Virus record (IMG/VR): IMGVR_UViG_3300042343_000188
Coordinates: 1 to 20,525 of that record
Length of the DNA stretch: 20,525 nt
Direction: 5' to 3' (one strand)
Origin: a virus
Shown: positions 2,907-8,641 of the stretch, one piece after another
Position numbering within the stretch: the first letter of the stretch is position 1
Layout of the letters: each line of letters begins with the position of its first letter
Notes under the pieces: model-generated
Told to the model about the DNA's origin: nothing
The model's database searches: none
The model's input: only the letters and a program-made list of their open reading frames with translations
Translations under genes and position numbers: made by a program

Positions 2907-3127
2907 GAAAGAACTTCGAAACATTCAAGTCTGGTGATGTTGTAAGACTGAAACCAGGCTTTCCTTATGTCAGTCGTGACCTTCTTACAGACGAGATATA
3001 TATTATAGAGAAGATGATAGCTGATGCCGGTGTTGTGACGTTGAAAGGTATGCCTTACAACAAAACATTCCCTGATGATGCATTTGAACTAATACATAAT
3101 GGAGATATGAGTGGCAAAGAGCAATGA
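2897..3127 (+). CDS. 76-residue hypothetical protein, SH3/KOW-like appearance
   Basis: A small, probably all-beta protein. The segment FKSGDVVRLKPGFPYVSRDLL followed by EIYIIEKMIADAGVVTLKG resembles a SH3-like or KOW-type barrel, in which a GDxVRL strand starts the fold. This is a visual resemblance, not a family assignment. The start overlaps the preceding gene by 10 bases and lacks a strong Shine-Dalgarno sequence. The end overlaps the next gene's GTG start by 17 bases. Confidence 0.65.
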   Translation: MEIRKNFETFKSGDVVRLKPGFPYVSRDLLTDEIYIIEKMIADAGVVTLKGMPYNKTFPDDAFELIHNGDMSGKEQ

Positions 3128-4376
3128 AGAACTTGAATCCGTTGAACGCCAGTGGGATCAGTTTAAAGAAACATTTGTGGCACCAGATGCACTTTCTGAT
3201 GCCGAACTAAAAGCTGCTGTCATCGAGGACCTTACCAATGTGTCCAAGATGACGGTAGAAGAATATACACTTTATCAAAAGTGGCTTGAAATTCATATCA
3301 AGTATCCTACTGAATACAACGCCATGTATCAGGAACAGGTGCTTATTGATGGCTATCAAGATGTTGAAATCTTCCGTATCAAAGATAACATCTGGATTCC
3401 AGAACAGCCTGACGATTATCTAAAGCTAAAGCCAGAGTTGATCTATGCACCTGAGGACAATCAGCAGAGTGTATGGAACACCATTCGTGACTTCACTTCT
3501 ACAATGAAGAATAACTCCAACATCGGACGTAATCTATCTTACATTGTGGCTGATTCGGTTTCAGGTAAGTACCTGGGTGTTATCTGTATTTCCTCTGACT
3601 TCCTCGATCTAACTCCTCGTGACAAGTATATTGGCTGGGATCGTGACGTTAAGACCAATCAAGGCATGATCAACCACACAGCCATTGGTTCTACTATCGT
3701 TCCATTACAGCCGCTTGGCTTTAACTATGTTGGTGGTAAACTACTGGCATTGATGTGTCTTACTGATAAGGTACAGGAAGATTGGAAAAGGCAGTATGGT
3801 GATACCCTTGTTGGTGTTACTACCACTTCTCTATATGGACAGAAGAAAGCTGGCGGCCTTTCACAGTATGATAATCTGAAACATTGGAAGAAGATGGGTT
3901 ACACCAGCGGTTCCGTGTCCTATGAAACAAGAAAGCCAACTGTAAAGTTAATGCTTGATTGGTTGAAGAAGAACCATACAAGAAAGTATTTTGAATGGTA
4001 CATTGCCAAGAACCTTGATGGCATGCCTTACAAGCGTGATCATAAGAACCGTTCCTATACTTTCATCTATTCTACACTGGACATTCCAAAGGACCTTATT
4101 CGTTCCGAACATGCTCGTGGTATCTATTTCAGTCCTTTGTATAACAACACCAATGAGTTTCTTCGTAAGGAAATCACCGAAGATAAACTTGACAAGTCTT
4201 TCGATACCAGCTATGATTATCTGGTAAATCTGTGGAAGGAAAAGTATGTAGCAAGACGGATTCGTTCCTTGAATGAACGAGGATCCTTCTCTACCGAAAC
4301 TCTTTTCTATGATGACCTAATCTATATGGATTGGGAAGAAACGAAAGACAAATATCTATCTCAAGTTGGAAGATAA
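3111..4376 (+). CDS. DUF4338 / DruA-like protein
   Basis: A 421-residue protein whose middle (about residues 130-270) matches my knowledge of the DUF4338 family, which includes DruA of the Druantia anti-phage system. The visible landmarks are NIGRNLSYIV (137 onward), a YLGVICISSDF strand, the strongly conserved PRDKYIGWD (169-177), then KLLALM and EDWKRQYGD (223-231), and finally TTSLYGQ with HWKKMGYTSG. The N-terminal ~120 residues look like a helical domain, and a basic helical C-terminus follows the core. The biochemical activity of DUF4338 is not settled, so I assign none. The start is GTG at 3111, with GGAG (3101-3104) six bases upstream; no closer ATG exists in this frame. DruA-like proteins do occur in T4-like phages outside full Druantia operons, and no druB-E partners are seen here. 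Confidence 0.7.
   Translation: MAKSNEELESVERQWDQFKETFVAPDALSDAELKAAVIEDLTNVSKMTVEEYTLYQKWLEIHIKYPTEYNAMYQEQVLIDGYQDVEIFRIKDNIWIPEQPDDYLKLKPELIYAPEDNQQSVWNTIRDFTSTMKNNSNIGRNLSYIVADSVSGKYLGVICISSDFLDLTPRDKYIGWDRDVKTNQGMINHTAIGSTIVPLQPLGFNYVGGKLLALMCLTDKVQEDWKRQYGDTLVGVTTTSLYGQKKAGGLSQYDNLKHWKKMGYTSGSVSYETRKPTVKLMLDWLKKNHTRKYFEWYIAKNLDGMPYKRDHKNRSYTFIYSTLDIPKDLIRSEHARGIYFSPLYNNTNEFLRKEITEDKLDKSFDTSYDYLVNLWKEKYVARRIRSLNERGSFSTETLFYDDLIYMDWEETKDKYLSQVGR
4189..4217 (+). promoter_or_regulatory. Candidate intragenic sigma70 promoter before the GIY-YIG-like gene
   Basis: TTGACA (4189-4194), a 17-base spacer and TATGAT (4212-4217, one mismatch to TATAAT) lie inside the 3' end of the DruA-like gene, about 160 bases before the next start codon. 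The spacing is ideal. It could also be coincidental coding sequence. Confidence 0.35.
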
Positions 4377-4377
4377 A

Positions 4378-4875
4378 ATGGCACACTATGATTTGACAAG
4401 TGGTAATGTGGTGTTAACGGAACATGATGTTGCTGAAAAAATCTTTGATTGTCTCGATAAAAAGGAGTTTGTAGAGGTTATTAGTGATACTACTGAAACT
4501 GGTGTAACACTTGATATTCCAATGACAGAACTTCCTGATACACCAGGTCTTTATCTTATCTATCATAAAGGTGACTTTAACCAGTATGAATGTATGTATG
4601 CTGGTGAAGGTAACATCCGATATAGAGTGTATAGATTTGAGAAAGAACTTGCTGATAAGTCCAGAGAAGATGAAGGTCATTCTGCTGCAAAGAAAGTTAG
4701 ACGCACTGGATTCATTCGTCATGGTGATCCTGTCTATGTAAAGTATATCACAAAAGCTGAAAGAGATTCGGTTGTGGTTGATACCCTTTGCAAATATTTA
4801 CGATTGAAAAACATTGATGAACATATCGCACATATCGCAGGTGCCAAGTTTAACAAGAGGGTGAAAAAGGCATGA
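4378..4875 (+). CDS. GIY-YIG-like nuclease-domain protein
   Basis: A 165-residue protein. Residues 56-87 carry the two hallmark strands of a GIY-YIG domain in variant form: GLYLIY (57-62) and YAGEGNIRYRVYRF (74-87), where Y74-A-G replaces YIG and R81/R83 could be the catalytic arginine. A variable Lys/Arg-rich helix and a C-terminal segment with IDEHIAHIAGAKFNKR follow. GIY-YIG domains cut DNA or RNA in repair, restriction and homing. The first ~50 residues are an extra N-terminal region. The substitution in the YIG motif and the unclear metal-binding Glu leave activity uncertain. The ATG at 4378 follows the previous stop by one base, with GGAAG upstream. The in-frame TTG at 4366 is not needed. 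Confidence 0.5.
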   Translation: MAHYDLTSGNVVLTEHDVAEKIFDCLDKKEFVEVISDTTETGVTLDIPMTELPDTPGLYLIYHKGDFNQYECMYAGEGNIRYRVYRFEKELADKSREDEGHSAAKKVRRTGFIRHGDPVYVKYITKAERDSVVVDTLCKYLRLKNIDEHIAHIAGAKFNKRVKKA

Positions 4876-7346: not shown

Positions 7347-8534
7347 ATGGCTAAGCGTATTGATCGTACCGAGTTCCTCGATAAGGTTCGTTTCGAGTTC
7401 GGTGCTATCCGTGAAATCACCCGTCCGCAGGTCCTTGAGATTTGTGAAAAGTATAATCTTGACCGTCCTAACTGGCTGCTAAATGATACGACCCGCCGTA
7501 TTGGTCGTGGCGTTTATGCTATGTTTGAAAATGGCACTAACCCTAAGGCAACTGCCAAACCAGTTGCTAAGGCTCCGAAACTGGCTCCCGTTGAGCCGTC
7601 TGTTACTGTGGCAATGGTTGCTCCGTCCGTTCTTTCGCAAAATGCGGAACTTTCTCTTGTACCTGAAAAGGCTACTGGTTATGTACCGTTCGGTAACTTT
7701 GCTGATGTTCGTTCTATTATCAAGTCTCGCAAGTTTTATCCCGCTTACATTACTGGTCTTTCTGGCAACGGCAAGACCATGATGATTGAGCAGGTTTGTG
7801 CCCAAGAAAAGCGTGAACTTGTTCGTGTCAATATCACAATTGAAACTGATGAAGATGACTTGATCGGTGGCTTCCGCCTTGTTAATGGTGAAACTGTGTG
7901 GCAGGATGGTCCTGTTATCACTGCCATGAACCGTGGTGCCGTTCTTCTTCTTGATGAAGTGGATCTTGGTTCTAATAAGATGATGTGTCTCCAGCCTGTC
8001 CTTGAAGGCAAGGCTGTCTATCTTAAAAAGACTAATCGTGTGGTTCATCCTGCCGCTGGCTTCAATGTCATTGCTACTGCTAACACTAAAGGCAAAGGCT
8101 CTGATGATGGTCGTTTCATCGGTACCAATGTTATGAATGAAGCGTTTCTTGAGCGTTTCTCCATTACAATGGAACAGGAATATCCTTCTGCTAAGATCGA
8201 AAGCAAGATCCTTAACAATGTCCTTGGTTCTTCTGGTATTGAAGCCACTGACTTTGTTGATAAGTTGGTGACTTGGGCTGATGTTATTCGCAAGTCCTTC
8301 TATGAAGGTGCTTTGTCTGAAATCATCTCAACTCGCCGTCTTGTCCACATTTGTGAGGCATATGGCATCTTTGGCCAGAATAAGGTCAAGGCTATCGAAC
8401 TTTGTCTAAACCGTTTTGATGTGGATACAAAAAATGCCTTCATGGAACTCTACAAGAAAGTGGACGAGACGGTTGATCCGGCTCCTGTGGCTGAACAGGC
8501 GAGTGCCGAAGATACTGTTGAGGTAGCTTTCTAA
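7347..8534 (+). CDS. CobS/MoxR-like AAA+ ATPase
   Basis: A 395-residue AAA+ protein. It has Walker A GLSGNGKT (137-144), Walker B AVLLLDEVD (~198-206), a sensor-1-like ATANT, an arginine-finger-like LERF, and a sensor-2-like STRRLV. This is the pattern of the CobS/MoxR branch, whose members work with VWA proteins to insert metals or remodel targets. Residues 1-60 form a separate small helical domain (FLDKVRFEFGAIREITRPQV...GRGVYAM) that looks like a winged helix, followed by an Ala/Pro/Val-rich linker. ATG 7347 has AAGGA (7336-7340) six bases upstream and lies after the promoter; the earlier in-frame ATG at 7302 falls within the promoter. Cyanophage T4-like genomes carry cobS homologues, but pairing with a CobT-like VWA partner makes a complete two-component module. 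Cobalt chelation itself is unlikely without CobN. Confidence 0.85.
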   Translation: MAKRIDRTEFLDKVRFEFGAIREITRPQVLEICEKYNLDRPNWLLNDTTRRIGRGVYAMFENGTNPKATAKPVAKAPKLAPVEPSVTVAMVAPSVLSQNAELSLVPEKATGYVPFGNFADVRSIIKSRKFYPAYITGLSGNGKTMMIEQVCAQEKRELVRVNITIETDEDDLIGGFRLVNGETVWQDGPVITAMNRGAVLLLDEVDLGSNKMMCLQPVLEGKAVYLKKTNRVVHPAAGFNVIATANTKGKGSDDGRFIGTNVMNEAFLERFSITMEQEYPSAKIESKILNNVLGSSGIEATDFVDKLVTWADVIRKSFYEGALSEIISTRRLVHICEAYGIFGQNKVKAIELCLNRFDVDTKNAFMELYKKVDETVDPAPVAEQASAEDTVEVAF

Positions 8535-8547
8535 GTAACACAAGAAT

Positions 8548-8614
8548 ACCCGTGTATAATAAAATGGTGTTGGTGGTTATACACGGGTCCTTTCCTTTCA
8601 CGACCACCAACACC
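8548..8614 (+). promoter_or_regulatory. Interlocking inverted repeats (A-B-A'-B') in the leader of the small HTH gene
   Basis: Two long perfect inverted repeats interleave. Arm A, 8548-8559, pairs with A', 8577-8588 (12 bases). Arm B, GGTGTTGGTGGT at 8566-8577, pairs with B', ACCACCAACACC at 8603-8614 (12 bases). The order A-B-A'-B' allows either an H-type pseudoknot (6-base and 14-base connecting loops) or two mutually exclusive hairpins. A TATAAT sits in arm A at 8555-8560, without a good -35, so a promoter starting near 8567 would make RNA containing only B, A' and B'. A switch between read-through and local transcripts, or an operator, are the leading explanations. Confidence 0.7.
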
Positions 8615-8641
8615 GATAACTTTGAATGGAGAAAATATATT

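Follow-up and report, generated by a model that had tools for sequence, protein, structure and literature searches.

We identified a 67-base element in a T4-like phage that is very probably a conserved RNA pseudoknot and that likely regulates, in cis, the gene for a small basic winged-helix (wHTH) protein behind it. The element lies at positions 8548-8614 of the window, the 20,525-nucleotide stretch of viral DNA analysed here (IMG/VR record IMGVR_UViG_3300042343_000188). In the reading we favour, it would form the 5' leader of the wHTH mRNA, folded as a pseudoknot with A:A' as stem 1 (S1) and B:B' as stem 2 (S2). As far as aligned sequences can show it, four properties characterise the element across relatives: the topology itself, selection on the plus-strand RNA, an exclusive link to the wHTH gene, and a location some 14-30 nt ahead of the start codon.

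Table 1. Features of the leader and its neighbouring genes in the window
Feature	Position	Strand	Remarks
cobS-like AAA+ gene, directly upstream	7347-8534	+	presumed source of read-through RNA
S1 5' strand (arm A)	8548-8559	+	ACCCGTGTATAA; contains TATAAT at 8554-8559; repeat search and covariation
Loop 1	8560-8565	+	TAAAAT; A-rich in most relatives
S2 5' strand (arm B)	8566-8577	+	GGTGTTGGTGGT; final base common to S1; repeat search and covariation
S1 3' strand (arm A')	8577-8588	+	TTATACACGGGT; repeat search and covariation
Loop 3	8589-8602	+	CCTTTCCTTTCACG; CU-rich; nearly invariant in clade 1
S2 3' strand (arm B')	8603-8614	+	ACCACCAACACC; repeat search and covariation
Shine-Dalgarno GGAG of wHTH gene	8628-8631	+	invariant in the clade-1 alignment
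wHTH gene, 73 aa, basic winged helix	8642-8863	+	sole gene found behind the leader

A repeat search of the window recovered two perfect 12-nt inverted repeats, interleaved in the order A-B-A'-B', exactly where the preliminary description had placed them, with base 8577 common to arms A' and B (Table 1). Each of four near-complete relatives (164-175 kb) has a single site of interleaved repeats in which both arms reach at least 10 nt, and Markov controls have none. This single match is the leader element in three of the four relatives; in the fourth, G001, it falls elsewhere because the S1 of that genome has a bulge. The repeats are real and not a product of chance.

The window, which carries cobS, a cobT-like gene, a clamp loader and a RegA-type repressor, is part of the genome of a T4-superfamily phage. 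Measured by gp44, its nearest isolates, Methylophilales phages and cyanophages, are less than 60% identical. The element occupies the gap between cobS and the winged-helix gene. The gene order cobS, leader, wHTH, phrog_1574, gp45 is kept in relatives, and cobS, leader and wHTH follow one another in about 110 IMG/VR loci. In most relatives the end of cobS lies about 86-200 nt ahead of the wHTH start, and the distance is greater in a few such as L025, L036 and L290. The wHTH protein (predicted model with pLDDT 89; pI 10.2) has a winged-helix fold and looks like a DNA-binding regulator; we know of no RNA-binding function for it. Its profile matches include Gp49 (9d83, E 0.0012). Weak profile matches (E 0.03-0.4) gave a lead, and only that, to a Z-alpha-type wHTH, an assignment we rejected, as the fold matches are scattered over many winged helices and the Z-alpha tyrosine position varies here. 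Elsewhere in the window, positions 3111-4376 encode a DruA-domain protein (Druantia defence protein, PF14236, E 1.4e-21), here in a T4-like phage, and positions 4381-4875 encode a protein with a GLYLIY...YAGEG motif that is reminiscent of GIY-YIG nucleases and has no PHROGs or Pfam match.

The relatives gathered with the wHTH protein as query form three main clades and several outliers. The A-B-A'-B' topology persists across them, and the stem letters change almost completely, with many compensatory double changes. In clade 1, which includes the window, 98.6% of cells are standard pairs, dropping to 27-46% in slid controls; double-sided changes affect 7 of 23 pairs (one in S1, six in S2), and 32 cells are double-changed compared with 9.3 in shuffles. 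Clade 2 (L017, L024-L026, L030, L034 and others) carries other arms, for instance ATACCCTGCTATAATG/CATTATAGCAGGGTAT and TCGTCG/CGACGA, and a tRNA-like sequence is often inserted between A' and B'. S1 is not perfect throughout this clade: A-C mismatches occur in L026, L034, L044 and L053, and L017 has a bulge. In clade 3 (L310-L349), where wHTH identity is about 60%, the stems are unrelated but their order is unchanged: an S1 of ~10-15 bp, a short A-rich loop 1, an S2 of 6-8 bp and a loop 3 of 8-18 nt, followed by the Shine-Dalgarno. In clade 3a, 99.3% of cells are paired and the summary count of double-changed pairs is 9 (the listing by stem gives S1 5, S2 2), and for clade 3b the summary count is 8 (by stem, again S1 5 and S2 2). 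Even wHTH homologues at about 41-46% identity retain the topology (L350, L351, L358-L360, L366-L371). Both interleaved stems of an H-type pseudoknot are thus kept by compensatory change, and the covariation check that the preliminary description had called for strongly backs its pseudoknot reading in very divergent relatives. The leaders of four named isolates (HTVC008M, Melnitz, Mosig and DLP6) all score nothing in our knot search, and the knot is therefore not universal in the wHTH protein family.

That search was fixed to H-type knots ending at most 35 nt from a start codon, with a score cut-off of at least 35. It returned 50 of 70 distinct leaders compared with 1 of 700 dinucleotide shuffles. 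Other Shine-Dalgarno leaders passed in 10 of 836 cases, three of which are copies of the element, so that 7 of 833 pass without those. Several of the 20 missed leaders are technical misses, with clade-1 arms lengthened by a chance pair or loop 3 lengthened by the tRNA-like insert.

These inserts are tRNA-like genes inside the leader, found at L017:2885-2956 and also in L018, L026, L034, L036-L038, L040, L044 and L053. The length of their anticodon arm varies by locus (about 17-20 nt), ARAGORN labels some of them tRNA-???, and the L017 insert reaches 25 bits with the Rfam tRNA model, below threshold. A clear tRNA (49.5 bits) is present in Pelagibacter phage HTVC008M (L353:1127-1197). It and a gene for ribosomal protein S21 occupy the interval from cobS to the wHTH homologue, so that this phage shares with clade 2 the presence of a tRNA at the site.

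The preliminary description had noted a TATAAT in arm A and proposed a local transcript start near 8567. We confirmed the hexamer within arm A, and the start is doubtful in the window phage because no -35 box lies 16-18 bp upstream (best 2 of 6 matches; the promoter scan is empty there). Of 27 distinct clade-1 leaders scored, 10 have a perfect TTGACA 16-17 bp before the arm-A TATAAT, and two more have a 5-of-6 match. With transcription taken to begin about 7 nt past the TATAAT, the predicted start, where a promoter is present, falls beyond the 5' arm of S1 in clades 1 and 2 and inside S1 in clade 3, where S1 would merely be shortened to 6-7 bp; the promoter of L360 and L366 lies fully upstream of S1. 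Because start positions differ between clades, a start-site sensor could apply to clades 1 and 2 at most. The suggested sensor of transcript origin thus fails as a general property, given clade 3, L360/L366 and the promoterless leaders, and could hold in clades 1 and 2.

Several further structures surround the promoter. A hairpin, P0, fills the -35/-10 spacer in L310-L346 and also in L360 and L374; in clade 3 this short hairpin changes solely via G-U or double changes. P0-like hairpins without a visible promoter occur in L350, L351, L379 and L381, and a similar spacer hairpin is visible in the Melnitz isolate (L354). In L366-L371 the -10 element lies between the arms of an inverted repeat of 10 bp, GTTTATTATA...TATAATAAAC, which is separate from the pseudoknot. 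An opposed promoter from TATAAC in A' was rejected, the minus strand having no conserved -35 by inspection.

Distinct non-Watson-Crick pair types on the plus strand, counted without the P0 of clade 3b, whose register is arbitrary, comprise 17 G-U and 4 A-C. A DNA palindrome should give no strand bias of the G-U type, and this preference, as a signal read from sequence, is the mark of a plus-strand RNA and not of a DNA palindrome. No good promoter was found in L343, L347-L351 or the window, and the knot is retained in all of these. Since P0 hairpins change by G-U or double changes and are also seen without a promoter, selection appears to act on RNA read through from cobS. These observations bear on the alternative that A and A' are DNA half-sites lying over the promoter, to be bound by the wHTH protein or another repressor. 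The palindrome does overlap the -10 element, its centre is near the predicted start, and a winged-helix gene is its neighbour. We nonetheless consider a DNA operator very unlikely: the recognition helix is identical in L024 and L025, whereas their A/A' arms show three compensated differences, so that constant half-sites do not accompany a constant recognition helix. With this and the excess of G-U over A-C, the operator for the adjacent protein raised in the preliminary description finds no support. In addition, the arms persist without a promoter, and clade 3 places its repeats differently relative to it. It is harder still to credit that the repeats are a functionless by-product of mutation. 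Template switching can homogenise short near-perfect inverted repeats, and during replication it might keep them perfect in this way; interleaved repeats confined to one locus in about 110 loci, with a one-strand G-U bias, would be unexpected from such a process. Other candidates were rejected as well: a stop-codon read-through or frameshift knot at the end of cobS (wHTH does not begin in the cobS frame, and the distance between the two genes varies), an intrinsic terminator (none in the window stretch) and the loose DNA pattern TGTATAAT-N{10,24}-TTATACAC, whose matches are mostly in unrelated phages.

In clade 1 a third pairing is possible, as the almost invariant loop 3 can pair with TGAA-T-GGAGA around the Shine-Dalgarno (in the window, 8591-8595 with 8628-8632 and 8597-8600 with 8623-8626). 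The computed energy is -8.8 kcal/mol in most clade-1 leaders compared with about -3 to -4 in shuffled controls, and the pairing is down to 4-5 pairs in L021, L029, L050 and L307. In constrained folding the values for unpaired GGAG were 0.00-0.11 with S1 forced and 0.19-0.72 with S2; unconstrained folding, by a method that cannot draw pseudoknots, favours B:B'. Energy and invariance, rather than covariation, suggest that this pairing could give a two-state switch in the window's clade. Applied to clades 1 and 2, such a switch would sense transcript origin: RNA read through from upstream would form S1, and the clade-1 CU-rich loop would shut the Shine-Dalgarno (off), whereas RNA begun inside S1, without arm A, would form B:B' alone and be translated (on). 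The TATAAT within the S1 5' arm, the invariance and energy of the loop 3 pairing, and the closing of GGAG when S1 is forced are all consistent with this idea. It is improbable as the explanation of the element, in that clade 3 and the outliers do not have the arrangement, the -35 box is absent from the window and about half of clade 1, the CU:Shine-Dalgarno pairing is invariant rather than covarying and short in the four leaders named above, and the pseudoknot-blind folding prefers B:B'. A role in mRNA stability or processing, with no protein partner, is also rather unlikely, though less so. The knot would be a protected 5' boundary of the wHTH message, the 5' end arising by cleavage of the cobS-wHTH read-through RNA or from a nearby start, and P0 would protect the 3' end of cobS. 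This agrees with the recurrence of P0, an AU-rich linker and then the knot, with structure conserved without sequence, and with a Shine-Dalgarno that is free in most relatives; the clade-2 tRNA-like insert within the leader would fit processing. However, a simple hairpin would suffice for stability, and the nearness to the ribosome-binding site and the restriction to one gene suggest gene-specific control.

Under the leader-control reading, the knot directly upstream of the ribosome-binding site would control the wHTH gene alone in cis, presumably by acting on translation initiation. A partner would be needed because the knot of most relatives ends about 14-30 nt before the start codon and leaves the Shine-Dalgarno free. 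The wHTH protein suggests itself for this part, since the element is linked to no gene but its own. The stem letters are so variable that this protein would have to read shape, not sequence. The basic wHTH protein may thus bind its own leader as an operator, giving autogenous control like that of the T4 gene 32 leader; we regard such an autogenous translational operator, with its putative binding partner, as an evenly balanced proposition. Covariation in three independent alignments, the excess of knots over both control sets, conserved synteny, the G-U bias, retention of the knot in promoterless leaders and in the homologues at 41-46% identity, the basic winged-helix product and the gene 32 precedent favour leader control. 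Against it stand the resemblance of the wHTH protein to a DNA-binding regulator, the absence of the knot in the most distant homologues (HTVC008M, Melnitz and Mosig), the imperfect S1 stems of some clade-2 leaders, the variability of the stem letters and a clade-1 S1 with one double-changed pair. A more elaborate scenario, which we think has little chance of being correct in full, is that T4-like phages carry single-gene leader pseudoknots shape-read by a winged-helix protein, and that clade 1 gained the CU-loop:Shine-Dalgarno pairing and a promoter in stem 1, so that the RNA reports local start versus cobS read-through.

The statement in the preliminary description that no named RNA family has this form holds for Rfam 15, in which the window and ten relatives have no match at the gathering threshold and the one sub-threshold match is unrelated; a known riboswitch or other Rfam RNA was rejected for want of matches. 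The glutamine riboswitch reported in the related phage Melnitz (PMC9004378) is a different element, and a search of the open-licence literature found no description of ours. Retention of the folded shape through near-complete turnover of its letters marks the element as a likely RNA control element for the wHTH gene, unrecorded so far, in T4-like phages from water. The promoter early stem-loops (PeSLs) of T4-type phages are composite promoter-terminator motifs that are dense in gene-shuffling regions (PMC4503421). Like them, our element can combine an early sigma-70 promoter with a neighbouring stem-loop between two genes; unlike them, it is single copy, syntenic and pseudoknotted, with no terminator-like site in the window stretch and often no promoter. 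A mobile PeSL cassette, which would be present in several copies and move between genes, was rejected given one syntenic copy per genome. The conserved loop was found in 42 contigs, and the contigs compared all carry it before the wHTH gene.

Closer parallels are found among leader pseudoknots. The ribosomal protein S15 (rpsO) operator pseudoknot, itself a parallel to gene 32 (PMC3014915), is also a leader pseudoknot, in that case for autogenous translational control; unlike our element it belongs to a bacterial r-protein gene, with sequence relationship compared through Rfam alone. In T4 and RB69, the gene 32 leader pseudoknot is the gp32 translational operator, stringent in structure and relaxed in sequence, and in T4 it nucleates binding of the gene product (PMC535899, PMC3014915). 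Our element resembles it in occurring in a T4-type phage, in a structure that outlasts sequence and in a nucleic-acid-binding product, and covariation points to the same H-type leader pseudoknot upstream of the ribosome-binding site. The gene behind it, however, encodes a winged helix rather than a single-strand-binding protein, the stems are longer, the promoter is often inside or next to stem 1, and the knot adjoins the ribosome-binding site, whereas that of gene 32 lies about 67 nt upstream of the start. The element is a candidate further case, absent from Rfam and spread through many environmental phages. One RNA shape recurs ahead of a single gene in dozens of versions that are unrelated in sequence, a natural series for testing whether a small winged-helix protein, or the ribosome itself, recognises RNA by its shape.
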